Shown here piece after piece: positions 4,530-25,215 of a DNA stretch of 26,132 bases. The notes beneath the pieces are model-generated. The model was not told the origin of the DNA, ran no database searches, and was given only the letters and a program-made list of their open reading frames with translations. The first letter of the stretch is position 1. Every line of letters starts with the position of its first letter. This DNA comes from a virus, in IMG/VR virus record IMGVR_UViG_3300036671_000284, positions 1 through 26,132 of that record; one strand, given 5' to 3'. The position numbers and the translations under genes were made by a program.

Positions 4530-4611
4530 GTTTTACTATCTATTGCGTAATCAGGTAGCGCACTGCGTTTGGGACGCAGGAGTCTAGGTTCAAATCCTAG
4601 TAGATAGACCA
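4505..4611 (+). repeat. 107-nt direct repeat, copy 1
   Basis: Identical to 5801-5907. It starts in the T-arm (GGTTCAAGCC) of the suppressor-like tRNA and runs to the CCA end of tRNA-Pro. The two copies are 1296 nt apart. Confidence 0.9.
4536..4611 (+). tRNA. tRNA-Pro(TGG), copy 1
   Basis: Perfect acceptor CTATCTA/TAGATAG, anticodon stem CTGCG/CGCAG with loop TTTGGGA, T-stem CTAGG/CCTAG, A73, CCA. Identical to the copy at 5832. Confidence 0.9.
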
Positions 4612-4618
4612 AGTTTAT

Positions 4619-4718
4619 GTGTCTGTAGCTCAGTTGGTAGAGCAGGAACCGGTTCATGGCGAAGGGCCTAATTGCTGCCGGGTAAACCAAGCCGTTGGTT
4701 CGAGTCCAACCAGACACA
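4619..4718 (+). tRNA. aberrant tRNA with expanded anticodon/variable region
   Basis: Acceptor GTGTCTG/CAGACAC, D-arm GCTC/GAGC and T-arm GTTGG/CCAAC are all perfect. Between D-arm and T-stem there are 51 nt (4643-4693) instead of about 23, or 31-39 in class II tRNAs. CCGG occurs at both ends of the extra piece. No anticodon arm with U33 folds cleanly (CAT at 4655-4657 is one candidate). The 3' end is A-CCT, not CCA. Either an insertion or a recombination product. Confidence 0.55.
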
Positions 4719-4719
4719 C

Positions 4720-4835
4720 CTAGTTAAGTGGTAATCAGTCAATCTGTGTAAAAGGTATTGCGGATCCCAAATCAGGATTGTTAAACATCGGAGCGCAAGT
4801 TAAATGAAATGTGTGTCAGCCTGCCACTTATTAGT
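4720..4835 (+). ncRNA. structured non-coding element between tRNAs
   Basis: TAAGTGG (4725-4731) pairs with CCACTTA (4824-4830), with CTA/TAG continuing the stem outward past a small bulge. Inside, TTGCG (4758-4762) pairs with CGCAA (4794-4798) around an ATCC/GGAT hairpin. No coding frame. Function unknown. Confidence 0.45.
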
Positions 4836-5569: not shown

Positions 5570-5744
5570 TATTATTGAGAGTCCTGTAACGAGGTGTCTA
5601 ATCAACAACCTGACTGCCGAGGGTTGACTTATCCCTTTCTTTTATTATGTCATGATCTGACATAGACCCGTGATAGGTCGTACATTAGATTGGGAGCGTG
5701 TAGTTATGTGCGCTTAAAAGGATATGGCAGTACTCTCAATAATA
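5570..5744 (+). ncRNA. 175-nt structured non-coding element
   Basis: TATTATTGAGAGT (5570-5582) pairs with ACTCTCAATAATA (5732-5744), continued by CTG/CAG after one mismatch. Enclosed hairpins include TATGTCA/TGACATA with a 5-nt loop (5645-5663), CAACC/GGTTG (5606-5626) and GACC/GGTC near 5666-5680. The multibranch shape ends 4 nt before the chimeric tRNA-Asp. No promoter or coding frame. Function unknown. Confidence 0.6.
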
Positions 5745-5748
5745 TTTT

Positions 5749-5825
5749 GCACCGTTAGATCAGTTGGTTAGATCGCTTGCCTGTCACGCAAGAGGCCAGA
5801 GGTTCAAGCCCAGCTCGAGTAGCCA
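5749..5825 (+). pseudogene. chimeric tRNA: Asp(GTC) 5' part joined to 3' end of the suppressor-like tRNA
   Basis: Positions 5749-5800 are a normal tRNA-Asp 5' region (acceptor GCACCGT, anticodon loop CTGTCAC with stem CTTGC/GCAAG). From GGTTCAAGCC at 5801 on it is identical to the 3' end of the tRNA at 4455. As a result the acceptor strands GCACCGT and TCGAGTA do not pair and the T-stem is broken. It is very unlikely to be functional. Confidence 0.85.
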
Positions 5826-5907
5826 GTTTTACTATCTATTGCGTAATCAGGTAGCGCACTGCGTTTGGGACGCAGGAGTCTAGGTTCAAATCCTAGTAGA
5901 TAGACCA
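5801..5907 (+). repeat. 107-nt direct repeat, copy 2
   Basis: Second copy of 4505-4611. Its 5' edge is the crossover point inside the chimeric tRNA-Asp; its 3' edge is the CCA of tRNA-Pro. Confidence 0.9.
5832..5907 (+). tRNA. tRNA-Pro(TGG), copy 2
   Basis: Identical to the tRNA-Pro at 4536; all arms intact. Confidence 0.9.
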
Positions 5908-7625: not shown

Positions 7626-7640
7626 CCACCTGTTCCGCCA
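7550..7640 (+). pseudogene. chimeric tRNA-Ser: Ser(TGA) body with Ser(GCT)-like 3' end
   Basis: Identical to tRNA-Ser(TGA) at 4868 until GACTC, then CCACCTGTTCCGCCA. Its last 14 nt equal the end of tRNA-Ser(GCT) at 23222. The acceptor GGAAGGC/CTGTTCC keeps only the outer four pairs plus a G-U, and the T-stem TAGAG/CCCAC is broken. Probably non-functional, although it gains an encoded CCA. Confidence 0.8.
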
Positions 7641-7646
7641 AGTAAT

Positions 7647-7721
7647 ACCAGATTAGCTCAGTGGTAGAGCAGCAGACCGATAATCTGTTGGTCACTGGTT
7701 CAAATCCAGTATCTGGTACCA
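7647..7721 (+). tRNA. tRNA-Ile(GAT)
   Basis: Perfect acceptor ACCAGAT/ATCTGGT, anticodon stem GCAGA/TCTGT, loop CCGATAA giving GAT. Position 33 is C, whereas nearly all tRNAs have U33. T-stem ACTGG/CCAGT, CCA. Confidence 0.87.
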
Positions 7722-7734
7722 TTTTTAATTTTAC

Positions 7735-7818
7735 ACAAGTGTGGTGAAACGGTATACACGCTGGTCTTAGAAACCAGTGCCGAAAGGCGTGAGAGTTCAA
7801 ATCTCTCCACTTGTACCA
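7735..7818 (+). tRNA. tRNA-Leu(TAG)
   Basis: Perfect acceptor ACAAGTG/CACTTGT, anticodon stem CTGGT/ACCAG with loop CTTAGAA, class II variable arm (GCC/GGC), A73, CCA. Confidence 0.9.
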
Positions 7819-7824
7819 ATCGTT

Positions 7825-7899
7825 GCCTCGTTAGCTCAGTGGTAGAGCAGTGCCTTTACACGGCGAAGGTCGGCAGTTCGAAACTGTCACGAGGTACCA
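7825..7899 (+). tRNA. tRNA-Val(TAC)
   Basis: Acceptor GCCTCGT/ACGAGGT (G-U at 1-72), anticodon loop TTTACAC, T-loop TTCGAAA, A73, CCA. Confidence 0.88.
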
Positions 7900-7907
7900 T
7901 TTTCTGG

Positions 7908-7936
7908 TTGACGCAAAAATCAATCTTTTGTATAAT
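7908..7936 (+). promoter_or_regulatory. sigma70-type promoter
   Basis: TTGACG (7908-7913), 17 nt, TATAAT (7931-7936), directly after tRNA-Val and upstream of the 96-residue gene. Confidence 0.8.
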
Positions 7937-7961
7937 ATATTTTTACATAGGAGATTGTGCC

Positions 7962-8252
7962 ATGCAAGCATGTAACTACATCAGCAAGTACAACATCAGC
8001 AACAAGTCCACAGGCTTCAGCACATACGATCGTATAAAAGCCACAGAAAAATGGCTGGAGTATGCTTTGGACATTGTAGATATGCAAGATGCCATGATGC
8101 GTTCGCTAGACTTTGATCAAAAATATCAACTGGCACAGGCGTTGGTTGTTGTGGAACGCAAAAAAGCCTACATGTACAATCACAAAAACTTTGATTCTAA
8201 ACGTGCGTTCACACTGTTTAGTGCAGTTAAAAACTGTAAAAAAACAGTTTAA
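7962..8252 (+). CDS. hypothetical protein, 96 aa
   Basis: ATG at 7962 follows TAGGAGATT and a consensus promoter. The protein is helical, with basic and aromatic residues (WLEYALDIVDMQDAMM; VVERKKAYMYNHKNF). Not recognised. It heads a short unit with the next basic protein and tRNA-Lys. Confidence 0.75.
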   Translation: MQACNYISKYNISNKSTGFSTYDRIKATEKWLEYALDIVDMQDAMMRSLDFDQKYQLAQALVVVERKKAYMYNHKNFDSKRAFTLFSAVKNCKKTV

Positions 8253-8269
8253 TTTAAAGGAGTAGTAAA

Positions 8270-8416
8270 ATGAAGTCAAAACTGATCGTACCCCGACGTA
8301 ATCCCTTCGTCAGTCTGGTACTTAAAAAAACAGGGGCAGGTAGTCATCGTAAGAGTAACAAGGCAGCACGTAAAGAAGTAAAGCAACGTCAATGGGAGAG
8401 TAGCTCAATTTGGTAG
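8270..8416 (+). CDS. small basic phage protein, 48 aa, overlapping tRNA-Lys
   Basis: Strong AAAGGAG 10 nt upstream. Sequence begins MKSKLIVPRRNPFVSLVLKK, then GAGSHRKSNKAARKE. The RNPFV...HRKSNKAxR pattern is, to my recollection, common among small conserved phage proteins of unknown role. The last seven residues and the stop are encoded inside the tRNA-Lys gene (from 8394), so the coding end is constrained by the tRNA. Confidence 0.65.
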   Translation: MKSKLIVPRRNPFVSLVLKKTGAGSHRKSNKAARKEVKQRQWESSSIW

Positions 8417-8470
8417 AGCAAGAAACTTTTAATTTCGAGGCTGTGGGATCGTGCCCCATCTCTCCTACCA
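8394..8470 (+). tRNA. tRNA-Lys(TTT)
   Basis: Acceptor GGGAGAG/CTCTCCT (G-U at 1-72), anticodon loop CTTTTAA, T-arm GTGGG/CCCCA region with loop ATCGTGC, A73, CCA. The CCA also forms the first three bases of the long hairpin that follows. Confidence 0.87.
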
Positions 8471-8545
8471 TATTAAAGCACACTCTTTAAGGTCTTGGTC
8501 GTTACCAGCGTAGCAAAAACGGCGACAGAGTGTGCTTTAATATGG
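8468..8545 (+). ncRNA. CCA-anchored hairpin element (19 bp, perfect)
   Basis: Arms 8468-8486 (CCATATTAAAGCACACTCT) and 8527-8545 are perfect reverse complements, with a 40-nt loop. The 5' arm begins with the CCA of tRNA-Lys. Related arms occur at 16862, 17113, 17213, 17465 and 24302. Confidence 0.75.
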
Positions 8546-8618
8546 TAATGAAGGTATCGTATGTCCGCTGTGCCGTCGGAGCCCGAGAGCGATACTATAA
8601 ACGGCATTGCCATAGTAT
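8546..8618 (+). ncRNA. second structured segment before tRNA-Met
   Basis: GTATCGT pairs with GCGATAC (one G-U) around a GC-rich loop, and ATACTAT pairs with ATAGTAT just before tRNA-Met. These pairings share bases and would be alternatives. No coding frame. Confidence 0.35.
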
Positions 8619-8693
8619 GGTAGAATAGCATAATGGTAGTGCGCCAGATTCATATTCTGTAAAGTGAAAGTTCAACTCTTTCTTCTACCACCA
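8619..8693 (+). tRNA. tRNA-Met(CAT), second
   Basis: Perfect acceptor GGTAGAA/TTCTACC, anticodon loop TTCATAT, T-stem GAAAG/CTTTC, A73, CCA. Different from the CAT tRNA at 3277, so one may serve as the lysidine-type Ile tRNA. Confidence 0.87.
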
Positions 8694-8699
8694 ATCAGT

Positions 8700-8773
8700 T
8701 GGCTCATAGTGTAATGGTAGCACTATAGATTTTGATTCTATCAGTCAAGGTTCGAACCCTTGTGAGCCTGCCA
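8700..8773 (+). tRNA. tRNA-Gln(TTG)
   Basis: Acceptor TGGCTCA/TGAGCCT with an unpaired U1-U72, G73 as in bacterial Gln tRNAs, anticodon loop TTTTGAT, T-stem CAAGG/CCTTG, CCA. Confidence 0.88.
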
Positions 8774-8783
8774 ATCACATCAA

Positions 8784-8860
8784 CCGCCCTTAACTCAGCT
8801 GGACAGAGTGCTTGTCTTCGAAACAAGAAGCCGTAGGTTCGAATCCTGCAGGGCGGACCA
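8784..8860 (+). tRNA. tRNA-Arg(TCG)
   Basis: Perfect acceptor CCGCCCT/AGGGCGG, anticodon stem CTTGT/ACAAG with loop CTTCGAA, CCA. Reads CGN codons and complements tRNA-Arg(TCT). Confidence 0.9.
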
Positions 8861-8916
8861 ATGTATCAATACTGCATAGTTATTATATAAATAATATCGA
8901 GAGGCAGGAAAAATAC

Positions 8917-14291: not shown

Positions 14292-14864
14292 ATGAAAACA
14301 TATGTGACTTCAGACCTTCATTTTGGACATAAAAACATTTTTAAATTTTGTGCAGAGGCTCGTGCCAAGTATCTGAATGACGGCATTGAAGATGTTGATT
14401 ACATGAACGAAGCAATGATACAAGACTGGAACAGCATTGTTGAACCTGGTGATGTTGTTTACATTCTTGGTGATGTTGCATTTTTGCCAACGCTGAAAGC
14501 AATCGAAATTATGAAGAGACTCAATGGTAAAAAGATTCTCATTGCAGGCAACCACGATAAAAAGACGCTGAAAGATCCGGTATTTCAAAGATGTTTTGAA
14601 TCAGTGCAGGATTACCTTGAAGTGAATTATGACGGTAACAAGATCTGCATGTTTCATTATCCCATTGCAGAATGGAATCAGATGCACCGTGGGGCTTTGC
14701 ACTTGCATGGGCACTTGCATGGATCTGTTTCCGGTATGGAAGAATACCGTTGCCGTGACATGGGCATGGATGCAACAGGTGAAATTGTCATCACAATGGA
14801 ACAGGCAATTGAATCAGCATTGAAAGGTAAAATTAAAGAACATCATCAGAAGGGAGAAATGTGA
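14292..14864 (+). CDS. calcineurin-like metallophosphoesterase
   Basis: 190 residues with all family motifs: DLHFGH (D8, H10), GDVAF, GNHDKK, FHYP, and HGHLHG. These bind two metal ions. Together with the kinase and ligase that follow, it could supply the 2',3'-cyclic-phosphate/3'-phosphatase step, since bacterial Pnkp uses a metallophosphoesterase module for this. Alternatively it is a general phage phosphoesterase. First gene after a consensus promoter. Confidence 0.85.
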   Translation: MKTYVTSDLHFGHKNIFKFCAEARAKYLNDGIEDVDYMNEAMIQDWNSIVEPGDVVYILGDVAFLPTLKAIEIMKRLNGKKILIAGNHDKKTLKDPVFQRCFESVQDYLEVNYDGNKICMFHYPIAEWNQMHRGALHLHGHLHGSVSGMEEYRCRDMGMDATGEIVITMEQAIESALKGKIKEHHQKGEM

Positions 14865-15520
14865 TGATTGATGAATCGCATTTACCATATGAACAACAAA
14901 GTCTGTTGTATCGACTCAAGACTCGTGCTCATATTCGGCGACAAATTAGCTCACGTAAAAGTGTTCAGGAAGGTAAGCCTGACCGATTAGCAGACCTGTT
15001 AGATGAGGCAGCTAAAGAGATTGAAGCAACAACTCCAACTTCCTTTCAGTTTTATATGTTGGTTGGACTCCCCGGAACTGGCAAGTCTACGTGGATTGAT
15101 GATCACAAGTACCTGTTTAGCGATAAGTATGCAATTCTCTCCACTGATAATTATATTGAAAGAATTGCAGAACTTCAAGGCACCACATATGATCGTGCCT
15201 TTGCACACAACATAAAAGATGCCACAGACCAAATGGAAGAAGATGCAGTTTCTGCTTTTTCCAACAAGACGCCAATTGTGATATGGGATCAAACTAATTT
15301 ATCGGTTAAGTCACGAGCACAAAAGTTAAGAATGGTACCTTTGTGTTATCGCAAAATTGCTGTGGTGCTTGCGGCACCAAGTGAAGAGGAATTACAAATG
15401 CGATTATCTTCACGTGTAGGTAAAACAATACCAGATCATGTTGTTAAACGTATGATGGGAAGTTTTGAATTTCCAGCATCAAGGGAAGGTTTCGACGAAG
15501 TACATGCTAGAATTAACTGA
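14864..15520 (+). CDS. P-loop kinase (polynucleotide kinase-like)
   Basis: 218 residues. An N-terminal helical region is followed by VGLPGTGKST (about 67-76, Walker A), STDNYIE, WDQTNL and RVGKTIPDHVVKRM, as in the 5'-polynucleotide-kinase family (AAA_33 type). No phosphatase domain is attached, unlike T4 Pnkp. ATG 14864 sits in a TGATG overlap after GGGAG. Predicted role: phosphorylating 5'-OH RNA ends for the ligase. Confidence 0.8.
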   Translation: MIDESHLPYEQQSLLYRLKTRAHIRRQISSRKSVQEGKPDRLADLLDEAAKEIEATTPTSFQFYMLVGLPGTGKSTWIDDHKYLFSDKYAILSTDNYIERIAELQGTTYDRAFAHNIKDATDQMEEDAVSAFSNKTPIVIWDQTNLSVKSRAQKLRMVPLCYRKIAVVLAAPSEEELQMRLSSRVGKTIPDHVVKRMMGSFEFPASREGFDEVHARIN

Positions 15521-15534
15521 AAGGAGATCATGCC

Positions 15535-16470
15535 ATGATTGATAGCAACAGCCTGATGGAATATGTTGTAAATAACCCCAATTTGGTCAAGATGCGCGAA
15601 TGTGCTAACTATCCTGGGTTATTTGTTTTGAAGTATTCTAAAAAAGTTTTCTATGACAACCTTTGGAACAACTACCTTGAGGAATGTCGTGGCACTATAG
15701 TTGATAAAGACTTCACTGTGATGTCACGCCCTTTCACCAAGATCTATAATTATGGCATTGAAAGCCAAGCACCTGTCCTAGACGATGCTACGCCTGTTAC
15801 TGCTTACCGTAAAGTAAACGGATTTATGGTGGCTGTTACAGTACATCGCGGCAAGTTGTTGGTGTCTACCACTGGTACTACAGACAGTGAATACGTTGAC
15901 ATGGCAAAAGAAATGATGGAATATCATATGCCCCTTGACGAATGGTTACAGGTGTTGAGCAACGAAAGTAATACTGGCATGACTTTTATGTTTGAGTGTG
16001 TACATAAAAATGATCCACATATTATTCCTGAAAAAGAAGGAATGCATTTCCTAGGGTGGCGTGTCAAAGCATGGGAAGGTACTGTGCATGGATACAGCAA
16101 GTTGACTGCCGACTTGTGGCGTGACTTTGCAGTATCTGAATTAAATTGTTATACGCCTGAATGTTACTTCACTACTATTGGCGGATTACAGCAAATGGCC
16201 AAAACCTGTCAGCATGAAGGATTTGTATTTTATACCAACGATGGTATCAGTGCAAAGATCAAGTCGCCATACTACTTGACTCAAAAATGGTTGGCACGTA
16301 ATCCGTCAACTGATAAAATTGTAGATACAAAGAAGGACATTAAAAAGAATCTTGATGAAGAGTACTACAGCTTGGTAGATGCTATTCGAGAAAACATTGA
16401 AGTCTACACTGCACTAAATGAGCAAGATAGATTGTCTTGGATTCGGAATTATTATAACTCAGAAATTTAA
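15535..16470 (+). CDS. ATP-dependent RNA ligase (T4 Rnl1-like)
   Basis: 311 residues. YRKVNGF (K93) is the nucleotidyl-transfer motif I, preceded by CRGTIVD and RPFTKIYNYG as in Rnl1 proteins. TFMFECV, EGFVFY and AKIKSPYYL match the later motifs (III, IV, V). AAGGAG lies 8 nt upstream of the ATG. T4 Rnl1 reseals tRNA cut by host anticodon nucleases; with the kinase and phosphoesterase upstream the same job is likely. Confidence 0.88.
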   Translation: MIDSNSLMEYVVNNPNLVKMRECANYPGLFVLKYSKKVFYDNLWNNYLEECRGTIVDKDFTVMSRPFTKIYNYGIESQAPVLDDATPVTAYRKVNGFMVAVTVHRGKLLVSTTGTTDSEYVDMAKEMMEYHMPLDEWLQVLSNESNTGMTFMFECVHKNDPHIIPEKEGMHFLGWRVKAWEGTVHGYSKLTADLWRDFAVSELNCYTPECYFTTIGGLQQMAKTCQHEGFVFYTNDGISAKIKSPYYLTQKWLARNPSTDKIVDTKKDIKKNLDEEYYSLVDAIRENIEVYTALNEQDRLSWIRNYYNSEI

Positions 16471-18722: not shown

Positions 18723-19208
18723 ATGCATGCCAAGATTGATCTTGAAGCAGTACAACAGTTTATTGAACAACAAGGGCCCAATACTCGTATCTATGTGGGC
18801 GGCGACAGTGAACGTTACTCAATTAAAAATGACTGGTATGCTGATTACACCTTGGCCATTGTGGTCCACGTCAACGGAAATAACGGTTGCAAAATTTTTG
18901 GAGAAGTACAGACTGAGCGAGATTGGGACCAAAAACGAGATCGTCCCAAGATGCGGCTCATGAACGAAGTGATGAAAATTGCAGACCTTTACTTGAAATT
19001 GCAGGAGGTACTGAAAGATCGAGAAATAGAAGTACATCTCGACATCAATCCAGTTGAATCACACGGAAGTAATTGCGTGATAAACGAAGCTGTTGGCTAT
19101 ATCAAGGGCATGTGTAATGTGGTGCCATTAGTTAAACCGCAAGCGTTTGCTGCCAGTTATGCAGCAGATCGACTTAAGGATGTATTAAGCGGGCGCCGTA
19201 TTGCATGA
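18723..19208 (+). CDS. YkuK/DUF458-like RNase H-fold protein
   Basis: 161 residues. YVGGDSERYS, later EVHLDINP with HGSNCVINEAVGYI, and VKPQAFAASYAADRL match the YkuK family, predicted to have an RNase H-like fold with Asp residues as candidate catalytic residues. Substrate unknown. ATG 18723 follows CAGGTG. Confidence 0.75.
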   Translation: MHAKIDLEAVQQFIEQQGPNTRIYVGGDSERYSIKNDWYADYTLAIVVHVNGNNGCKIFGEVQTERDWDQKRDRPKMRLMNEVMKIADLYLKLQEVLKDREIEVHLDINPVESHGSNCVINEAVGYIKGMCNVVPLVKPQAFAASYAADRLKDVLSGRRIA

Positions 19209-19242
19209 CCATTTGCCACAACAACATAATCCGGAACAATGT

Positions 19243-20292
19243 ATGAACAACTATATCGATACTATTCGTGCCAAATATGACATCCAAGACCATGTTGAGG
19301 CCCCGGTAGTTGTGCCAAAGTTGCCTGTGACAGGTATTGTGTTGATTGTGGGCACATCTGGATCAGGTAAAACAACAATCTTAAAAACGATTGATCGGCC
19401 CAAATCAACAACTGTTGATCAGTCTGCAACTGTGCTGGAAAATTTCAGCTCAGCCGAGCAAGGTGAGGAACTGTTGCTGGCTTGTGGCCTACGTACTATC
19501 CCTGCTTGGTTTCGTTCACCAGCCACTCTGAGCAACGGTGAATACCACCGTTTTGAGATTGCGCTGGGACTGGATCAAGGGCATGTCATCATTGACGAGT
19601 TTACCAGTGTAGTTGACCGCGACACTGCCAAAAGCCTGGCATTGAGTGTTCGCTGTTACTTTGACCGACATCCTGGTGTGTTGTATATTGCATCGTGTCA
19701 TCGTGACATCATTGATTGGTTAGATCCAGAATGGGTCTACGACACTGATCTGCAAAAACTTGAAAACCGGAGGTCACTTCATCGACTGGGGACAAAACCC
19801 GAGCTCTCACTCACCCTCACAAGCACAACTCCGGACTATTGGCGCTATTTTTCAAAGTATCACTATCTAGACACCAACATGAGCCGCAGTGTTCATTGTT
19901 ATGCGTTGCTGTTGGGGGAGAAACCCATAGCATTTCATGCTGCAATACATTCCACCAATCGCGACATTCACAGCTATTGGCGTGGTCATAGAACCGTGGT
20001 GTTGCCCGAGTTTCAAGGCATGGGAATTGGCACTACTTTCAGTGATGCCATTGCTGAAATATATGTTAGTCGTGGGTTGCGTTATTTTAGCAAAACTGCG
20101 CACCCCAGTTTCGGTGAGCATCGAGAGCGATCAGACTTGTGGCGTCCAACATCAACAAACAAAAAAAGCCGTTTGGGAAGCTACTTGCTCAAGGATGGGT
20201 CAGCACGTAAGATGCCCGGTTATGGAGGCACTACCACTGCACGTGATGCAGGGCGCATATGCTACAGTCATGAGTACATTGGCAAGAAATAA
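19243..20292 (+). CDS. ABC-type ATPase fused to GNAT acetyltransferase domain
   Basis: 349 residues. N-terminal ATPase: GTSGSGKTT (37-45, Walker A), LSNGE (96-100, ABC signature), HVIIDEFTS (114-122, Walker B), SCH (151-153, H-loop). C-terminal half: VVLPEFQGMGIGTTFSDAI (252-270), the acetyl-CoA loop of GNAT enzymes. No membrane segments, so not a transporter. A TTG at 19201 would overlap the previous gene; the ATG at 19243 with GGAA upstream is preferred. Substrate unknown. Confidence 0.8.
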   Translation: MNNYIDTIRAKYDIQDHVEAPVVVPKLPVTGIVLIVGTSGSGKTTILKTIDRPKSTTVDQSATVLENFSSAEQGEELLLACGLRTIPAWFRSPATLSNGEYHRFEIALGLDQGHVIIDEFTSVVDRDTAKSLALSVRCYFDRHPGVLYIASCHRDIIDWLDPEWVYDTDLQKLENRRSLHRLGTKPELSLTLTSTTPDYWRYFSKYHYLDTNMSRSVHCYALLLGEKPIAFHAAIHSTNRDIHSYWRGHRTVVLPEFQGMGIGTTFSDAIAEIYVSRGLRYFSKTAHPSFGEHRERSDLWRPTSTNKKSRLGSYLLKDGSARKMPGYGGTTTARDAGRICYSHEYIGKK

Positions 20293-24171: not shown

Positions 24172-24296
24172 ACAGCAGAGTATTAGTCTTATCAACCCAA
24201 TTGGTAGTGAACATAGTTTGTAATAAATATTTAAGAACAGCGTAAACCTGCTGAGGAAACATTGGCGACACCCGGGTTCAACTCCCGGCATCTCCA

Positions 24297-24379
24297 CCAG
24301 TAAGTATATTGTGACGAAGGAACTCAACTTTGGGAACCGGAAGTAAGGGCACTAGGCACACAGTATACTTTCTAATGGG
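24297..24379 (+). ncRNA. intervening segment of the tmRNA, hairpin family member
   Basis: AAGTATATTGTG (24302-24313) pairs with CACAGTATACTT (24359-24370), one G-U, between the acceptor CCA and the coding-piece 5' end. The arm nearly equals AAGTATACTGTG of the element at 17465. It should be removed when the tmRNA matures. Confidence 0.65.
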
Positions 24380-24485
24380 GATGATATTGGCAATCGACCG
24401 GCAAGATAGTACAAGGACAGGCGCTCGGCAATGTAGAAGTCGTTAGGATTAGGGTATCCTGGTCGTAGAAACAAAAAACGTAAAT

Positions 24486-24524
24486 GCAAACGATGAACAA
24501 TTCTTGATGGCTGCAAATGCTTGA
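24486..24524 (+). other. tmRNA tag reading frame, ANDEQFLMAANA
   Basis: GCA at 24486 is the probable resume codon, preceded by TAAAT (compare TAGTC in E. coli). It reads ANDEQFLMAANA then TGA TAG. ANDE is the classic tag start. The end AANA departs from the usual LAA/VAA/MAA. Confidence 0.75.
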
Positions 24525-24563
24525 TAGCGAAGTAGGTTTTGCTTTGTAAAAGAAAAAACCCTC

Positions 24564-24590
24564 ATAGGAGCTTCGGCTCCTATTTGTTTG
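24564..24590 (+). terminator. terminator of the tmRNA, possibly bidirectional
   Basis: ATAGGAGC (24564-24571), TTCG, GCTCCTAT (24576-24583), then TTGTTT. On the other strand it sits at the stop of the HNH gene, preceded by a run of Ts in that direction (AAAAAACC on plus). Confidence 0.75.
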
Positions 24591-25215
24591 GATATTCCCA
24601 AGTCCATGTTCCATCGGGCAATATTTTCTTTTTTCTACCAGTAACGGTTGCTGATAATTTAACGGCACTTTTTTTCCCGTTTTCGGCAGATGTAGGACTT
24701 GGGAGTCCTTTGTTCCAGGCAACCCTTCCCATCATCGATTCGCTAAGTTTTGTATTTTTCTTACCTGCTGTTTTTTTACCATTTCGTGCTCCGTTACATC
24801 TGTGTCCACACACAAACTCAGATTTAATAAGATGATGACAAAACTCTAATCTAACAAATATTCCATTACATATAACACACTTGTATGTTCTATCTTCCTT
24901 TGGCTTAGTTTTAGTTCGTTTATTTTGCTCAGATAATAATTTAGAATGTTCCAACCTTGCTTTCTCGTAGTATCTATTAGAATATTGTTTGATCCTCCCC
25001 ATCATATTAACAGCATGCCATAGTTTACCTCCGTATATCTTTGCTAGAAAGATATGAGCTATATAATGTTCTCTTGCGGTAAGATTTACTAGATTGGTTG
25101 GGTCATCTGTACCACCTATACATCTAGGAATAATATGATGGTTTTCCTTGTATCCAGCAAGGGTTCGAGTCTTTGCTCGTTCTATTAAAAAATGATATTG
25201 TTTAGTATAATTCAT
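24580..25215 (-). CDS. HNH homing-type endonuclease
   Basis: 211 residues. ENHHIIPRCIGGTDDPTNLV and AREHYIAHIFLAK (about 24-58) form the HNH catalytic core. A zinc-ribbon-like stretch (YKCVIC ... EFVCGHRC) and a C-terminal GRVAWNKGL...SAENGKK segment like NUMOD DNA-binding motifs follow. Free-standing homing endonucleases of this type spread by cutting genomes lacking them. It stands beside the tmRNA gene on the opposite strand, between two TTCG hairpins. Confidence 0.85.
   Translation of the reverse strand: MNYTKQYHFLIERAKTRTLAGYKENHHIIPRCIGGTDDPTNLVNLTAREHYIAHIFLAKIYGGKLWHAVNMMGRIKQYSNRYYEKARLEHSKLLSEQNKRTKTKPKEDRTYKCVICNGIFVRLEFCHHLIKSEFVCGHRCNGARNGKKTAGKKNTKLSESMMGRVAWNKGLPSPTSAENGKKSAVKLSATVTGRKKKILPDGTWTWEYPNK

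Follow-up and report, generated by a model that had tools for sequence, protein, structure and literature searches.

A phage-borne gene for a circularly permuted, two-piece-type tmRNA with an extended tag peptide

The tmRNA locus and its genomic setting

The DNA analyzed here (the window) is a 26,132-base record, a fragment of one metagenome virus. It encodes an endolysin, spanin-like genes, an RNA ligase, a polynucleotide-kinase-like protein and homing endonucleases, and ARAGORN predicted 25 tRNAs covering all 20 amino acids (positions 3277-23313), in line with the sequence-only reading, which had described a phage-like genome with many tRNAs. At positions 24239-24583 the same reading had placed a circularly permuted tmRNA gene, in which the 3' half precedes the 5' half. 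The following parts of this region were distinguished:

24239-24271, + strand: 5' flank of the acceptor piece (RF04321 alignment)
24239-24242 (AGCG), 24247-24250 (CCUG) and 24262-24267 (UUGGCG), + strand: P2 strands, with partners at 24399-24404 and 24418-24425
24272-24288, + strand: T arm with the stem CCGGG/CCCGG (5 of 5 pairs) and the loop UUCAACU, read from the sequence
24289-24299, + strand: 3' acceptor strand CATCTCC (24289-24295; 7 of 7 pairs with 24377-24383), discriminator A (24296) and CCA (24297-24299)
24299, + strand: predicted 3' end of the acceptor piece
24300-24376, + strand: intervening segment that separates the two pieces and is predicted to be cut out, with ends that fold into a long hairpin
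24377, + strand: predicted 5' end of the coding piece
24377-24404, + strand: 5' acceptor strand GGGGATG (24377-24383), D-loop-like region and 3' strand of P2 (RF04321 alignment)
24426-24464, + strand: PK1-region helices CGGC/GTCG (24426-24442) and GATTAGG/CCTGGTC (24447-24464)
24486-24527, + strand: tag reading frame GCA...TGA TAG, encoding the peptide ANDEQFLMAANA followed by two stops (ARAGORN)
24535-24560, + strand: 3' hairpin GGTTTT/AAAACC, 3' of the tag, read from the sequence
24564-24583, + strand: terminator hairpin ATAGGAGC-TTCG-GCTCCTAT, able to serve either strand (terminator scan)
24580-25215, - strand: homing endonuclease-like ORF of 211 aa (phrog_655, E 3.2e-47)

In an Rfam search of the whole window, positions 24239-24524 matched the model RF04321 (tmRNA_permuted) with 66.1 bits (E 6.7e-11), the alignment spanning model positions 1-213 of 213 and exceeding the gathering score of 47. 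ARAGORN likewise returned a permuted tmRNA (24206-24615), whose tag is read from GCA at 24486 to TGA TAG, after the 5' half, where a tag frame had been expected. The gene has the make-up of the RF04321 family: (i) the segment order of 3' half followed by 5' half, (ii) a 7-bp acceptor stem, (iii) a T arm, (iv) CCA, and (v) a tag frame of 12 codons that begins with the resume codon GCA and is closed by TGA TAG. The resume context TAAATGCAAACGATGA is conserved. These matches, together with the covariation described below and the phage genes nearby, support the central claim of the sequence-only reading, namely that the gene encodes a circularly permuted tmRNA of the two-piece type and belongs to a phage.

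The details of that reading were largely borne out. The acceptor stem is complete and includes the G3-U70 alanine identity pair (24379 G/24293 U), which is invariant in 14 viral sequences; the predicted ends of the two pieces agree with the acceptor strands and CCA; and the proposed right-hand limit of the gene, 24583, is the exact end of the bidirectional terminator hairpin. The P2 helix is imperfect at one position by the junction (24268 A/24398 C), where the bases do not pair. The model RF01850 (beta_tmRNA) aligned over its full length with positions 24188-24586 (66.6 bits, E 4.6e-20, in a 501-base stretch); since its gathering score of 84 was not reached, the gene is not filed as beta_tmRNA. 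A BLAST search of the tmRNA against GenBank phages yielded just short chance-level or ssrA-3'-end matches. The neighboring homing endonuclease-like ORF, which gave no Pfam match at E 0.001, is convergent with the tmRNA gene, abuts it and shares its terminator region.

Several observations concern other parts of the window. Two tRNA-like matches of Rfam, one at 4619-4718 that spans about 100 nt and contains a long insertion and one at 5749-5821, had no ARAGORN call. The tRNA-Pro(UGG) gene is duplicated (4536-4611 and 5832-5907), with a common upstream sequence, and the regions by the two copies (4609-4830 and 5618-5811) share 95-97% identity with a virus contig (L401) that also has a permuted tmRNA. 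The genes of a metallophosphoesterase, the polynucleotide-kinase-like protein and the RNA ligase stand in a row (14292-16470) near the tRNA cluster and possibly form a tRNA repair set; another contig (L409) has relatives of these genes as well as a permuted tmRNA. With 42-43% identity, the RNA ligase is nearest to ligases from Variovorax and Acidovorax phages. These relatives hint at a betaproteobacterial host, which would fit the beta-like tmRNA gene; no permuted tmRNA was found in the ligase relatives ACP17 and V45v66.

Structural constraint and mosaic make-up

The named structure comprises 36 pairs, which were counted over 14 viral tmRNAs. In this set 86.3% of the cells are paired and 22 pairs have changed on both sides, and the covariation score is 0.492, compared with 0.182 for shuffled and 0.04-0.123 for slid alignments. 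The acceptor stem and the T arm are paired in every one of the 14 sequences, and the T arm covaries. The inner P2 is 90% paired, with all 5 of its pairs changed on both sides, and the PK1-region helices reach 95-96%, with changes that compensate each other. Support for the outermost two P2 helices, which are weak over the set (48-55% paired), comes chiefly from the window itself.

The closest relative, L327 (IMGVR_UViG_3300017917_003030), shares with the window gene 76.5% identity over 24222-24428, the type of terminator hairpin, and the unusual variant GGCAATCGACC in the D-loop-like region. It differs in having another intervening segment and another PK1 region. Between the two genes the T-arm stem changes from CCGGG/CCCGG in the window to AAGGG/CCCTT in L327 (two fully compensated pairs), and P2 also differs by paired changes. 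The counterpart of the 3' hairpin in L327 (ACTAT/ATAGT) consists of other bases and is still paired, and its terminator, ATAGGGAC-TTCG-GTCCCTAT, shows two compensated pairs relative to the window. Taken together, the comparisons argue that the tmRNA structure is maintained under constraint and has not decayed.

The intervening segment lies within a 92-nt tract of the window (24293-24384) that agrees with positions 417-508 of contig L408 in all 92 positions, whereas the flanks of this tract are 63.5% identical over 52 aligned bases and 77.4% identical over 133. Since the identical part is a discardable segment, expected to diverge fastest, this points to recent recombination, and it means that tmRNA segments move between phages. 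The spacer had no BLAST match in phages and plasmids. The acceptor stem of L408 has a G4-U69 wobble where the window pairs Watson-Crick, which suggests L408 as the recipient of the tract. In a tree, L408 was placed as sister to the window gene; this placement reflects the shared spacer tract, and the tree is therefore no evidence of descent. Positions 24426-24503 share 91% identity with L379 and L396, which carry a tag of another class (FALAA), so that the gene looks mosaic.

Homing endonuclease-like ORFs abut tmRNA genes in the window (24580-25215), in L008 (7512-7898) and in L216 (954-1496). Of 11 such ORFs, 6 lay within 1 kb of a tmRNA, with about 2.5 expected, two of the four queries having been chosen because they abut tmRNAs. 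As a lead only, homing endonucleases could drive the exchange of segments.

With its 66 bits, the window gene has the lowest RF04321 score in the set of viral relatives that were compared along the whole model (others 74-135). This score, the mosaic make-up and the altered tag end (see below) would suit the remnant of a decayed or captured tmRNA, such as a non-functional, passive by-product of recombination. Such an origin is improbable: every acceptor and T-arm pair is intact, the changes relative to L327 are compensated in several helices, and the insertion or deletion in the tag is in frame and followed by double stops. Decay was also dropped as the cause of the low score, given that L327 shows divergence by compensated changes; because the odd D loop is common to L327, the score instead reflects divergence of the lineage.

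The tag peptide

The tag of L327 is ANDEQFLMAA, of the same FLMAA class as that of the window. The window tag is this peptide extended by six in-frame bases (two codons), and it ends in -AANA instead of -AA. Because the difference is in frame, a frameshift error is unlikely; a one-base deletion at the tag end, considered by comparison with L008, was dropped on the same grounds. The window tag departs from the canonical SsrA degradation tag, which has an -AA end of the LAA or MAA type.

The degenerate pattern ANDE[R/Q/H]FLMA, with arginine codons of the CGN type, was found in 34 IMG/VR contigs in a search covering contigs of 3 kb and more. Several of these are near-identical copies from different samples, so that the number of lineages is smaller, with 13 distinct sequences called by ARAGORN. 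All 34 contigs read ANDE[R/Q/H]FLMAA and then a stop, after a tmRNA-like resume context. A scan of 84,980 prokaryote genomes with the same pattern found no FLMAA-class tag in a tmRNA: the sole match continues in frame as part of a normal protein-coding gene (MASVNEFE) and is not a tmRNA tag. The class thus seems confined to viruses so far. A literature search returned no match to tags of the FLMAA type. Among 139 distinct viral permuted tmRNAs, all correctly framed tags except that of the window end in -AA (L068 and L212 seem to deviate, probably because they were read in the wrong frame); this sample was partly picked by tag patterns, and the first scan, which was blind to the tag end, agrees with it. 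Within these 139 sequences the two-codon extension is unique to the window phage.

The tag class also bears on whether the gene is a host tmRNA fragment left in a prophage at an ssrA attachment site. Fragments of this kind are known in prophages (PMC9004378); in the present case such an origin is highly improbable, as the gene is complete and ends in a terminator of its own, the window ORFs examined include no integrase, the tag class is absent from the prokaryote genomes searched, and the relatives sit within large virus contigs.

In E. coli, ClpX contacts the C-terminal LAA residues of the tag. By analogy, weaker recognition by ClpXP would be expected for an -ANA end, and the two-residue extension probably changes how host ClpXP handles the tagged proteins, an effect on which we can only speculate. 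The altered tag makes it plausible that the phage tag could override that of the host, as the sequence-only reading had proposed.

A narrower version of the mechanism proposed below, overlapping with it, is a dominant-negative or decoy tmRNA, which would draw SmpB and ribosomes away from the host tmRNA and, through its poorly recognized -ANA end, leave tagged proteins released and not degraded. The window tag end, unlike the -AA of other distinct viral tmRNAs, and the role of the LAA terminus in ClpX contact speak in its favor. A tag-less tmRNA of phage DS6A is also reported, as cited in PMC11915505, to inhibit the tmRNA of the host on expression in E. coli. We consider a decoy rather unlikely, as the C-terminal residue remains Ala and the extension occurs in one phage only, the tags of other phages ending in -AA.

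Proposed function and comparison with known systems

The best overall explanation is, very probably, a working phage-encoded circularly permuted tmRNA. The form, structure and covariation of the gene, its tag frame and its location in a phage are given above; by analogy with the family, we infer processing into two pieces, charging, use of SmpB and a function in rescue. A single precursor transcript would end at the terminator (24564-24583), and host tRNA-processing enzymes would excise 24300-24376, leaving an acceptor piece whose terminal CCA reaches to 24299 and, from 24377 on, the coding piece. The two-piece pair would be charged with alanine by AlaRS via G3-U70, bind host SmpB and enter stalled ribosomes, where (A)ANDEQFLMAANA would be added before termination at UGA-UAG. 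Ribosomes would in this way be kept free during infection, when mRNA decay makes many broken messages.

No match to SmpB (PF01668) was found in 17 records including the window, the window and most of the others being fragments; SspB, also searched in phage records, was not found. SmpB would then probably come from the host, and the gene would likely give the phage its own ribosome rescue, dependent on this host protein.

The contig of L327 encodes a full ClpX about 3 kb from the tmRNA (7634-8863, - strand; TIGR00382, 505 bits, cut-off 371). Among seven contigs longer than 300 kb with a permuted tmRNA, ClpX scores above the cut-off in six, and a close homologue of ClpP is present in six, with 240-301 bits against an equivalog cut-off of 308.6 that none of them reaches. 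All 14 phage ClpX sequences retain the pore loop GYVG, and some of them, including that of L327, retain RKH-type and IGF-type motifs. Neither ClpX nor ClpP was seen in the window, a 26-kb fragment. Full-length ClpX was recorded in L327, G012, G017, G046, G055, G100, G101, G103, G104, G107, G111, G014, G034 and G050, and in many of these virus contigs a ClpP homologue and a permuted tmRNA are found as well. ClpX and tmRNA genes are not adjacent in the jumbo contigs (in G012, for example, they lie at 323 and 182 kb). A tie of ClpX to the FLMAA tag class found no support: ClpX also occurs in phages with FALAA tags, and a 163-kb FLMAA contig is without ClpX.

An ABC-type ATPase fused to a GNAT acetyltransferase (phrog_11143; window 19201-20292) is 68-85% identical across jumbo-phage contigs that otherwise share little with the window, suggesting recent spread. 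Of 50 contigs carrying this gene, 7 exceed the RF04321 cut-off, including all 4 that are longer than 300 kb, and the jumbo phages of that group thus seem to carry a permuted tmRNA as a rule. Because the ATPase-acetyltransferase gene is the only one that strongly links the window to the group, the window phage was not assigned to it.

In a wider and quite tentative picture, to which we give little weight, freshwater phages would keep a tagging lineage of their own, with FLMAA tags unseen in cellular genomes and swapped piecewise between phages, and in some lineages it would be paired with phage ClpX and ClpP. Proteins from stalled ribosomes would then escape host proteolysis and be dealt with under phage control, and the -AANA end of the window tag would represent an extreme case, in which rescue no longer leads to degradation. 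The question at issue is whether phage tmRNA only frees ribosomes or also redirects which proteins are degraded, and a tag class seemingly confined to viruses, a natural extension at the critical end of the degron and the ClpX and ClpP of jumbo phages allow a direct test of it.

Phage two-piece tmRNAs as a kind have been known since 2022 and are uncommon: one was described in the Methylophilales phage Melnitz (Buchholz et al., 2022; PMC9004378), and ARAGORN found 53 in phages among 18,146 genomes (PMC9004378). Many permuted tmRNAs were returned by our IMG/VR scans. For huge phages, tmRNA and SmpB are on record (PMC7162821), and ClpX and ClpP have been reported in jumbo phages (PMC7824862). For the Sinorhizobium jumbo phage AP-J-162, a phage different from that of the window, a tmRNA and Clp proteins including ClpX are reported, and the account given there ties ClpX to replication (PMC11242549). 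Melnitz likewise encodes a permuted tmRNA, for which roles in phage takeover were proposed; its gene is of the alphaproteobacterial type and linked to a glutamine riboswitch (PMC9004378), whereas the window gene is nearer to the beta type, no riboswitch was matched in the window by Rfam, and the tag is ANDEQFLMAANA. With the families RF04321 and RF01850 (Rfam 15; PMC11915505) the window gene shares the segment order, resume context and 3' hairpin, and it differs from them in its D loop, PK1 region and tag end. What is unusual here is the tag class, so far seen only in viruses, with a two-residue extension, the identity of the 92-nt spacer tract, and the presence of ClpX in contigs of tmRNA-bearing relatives.
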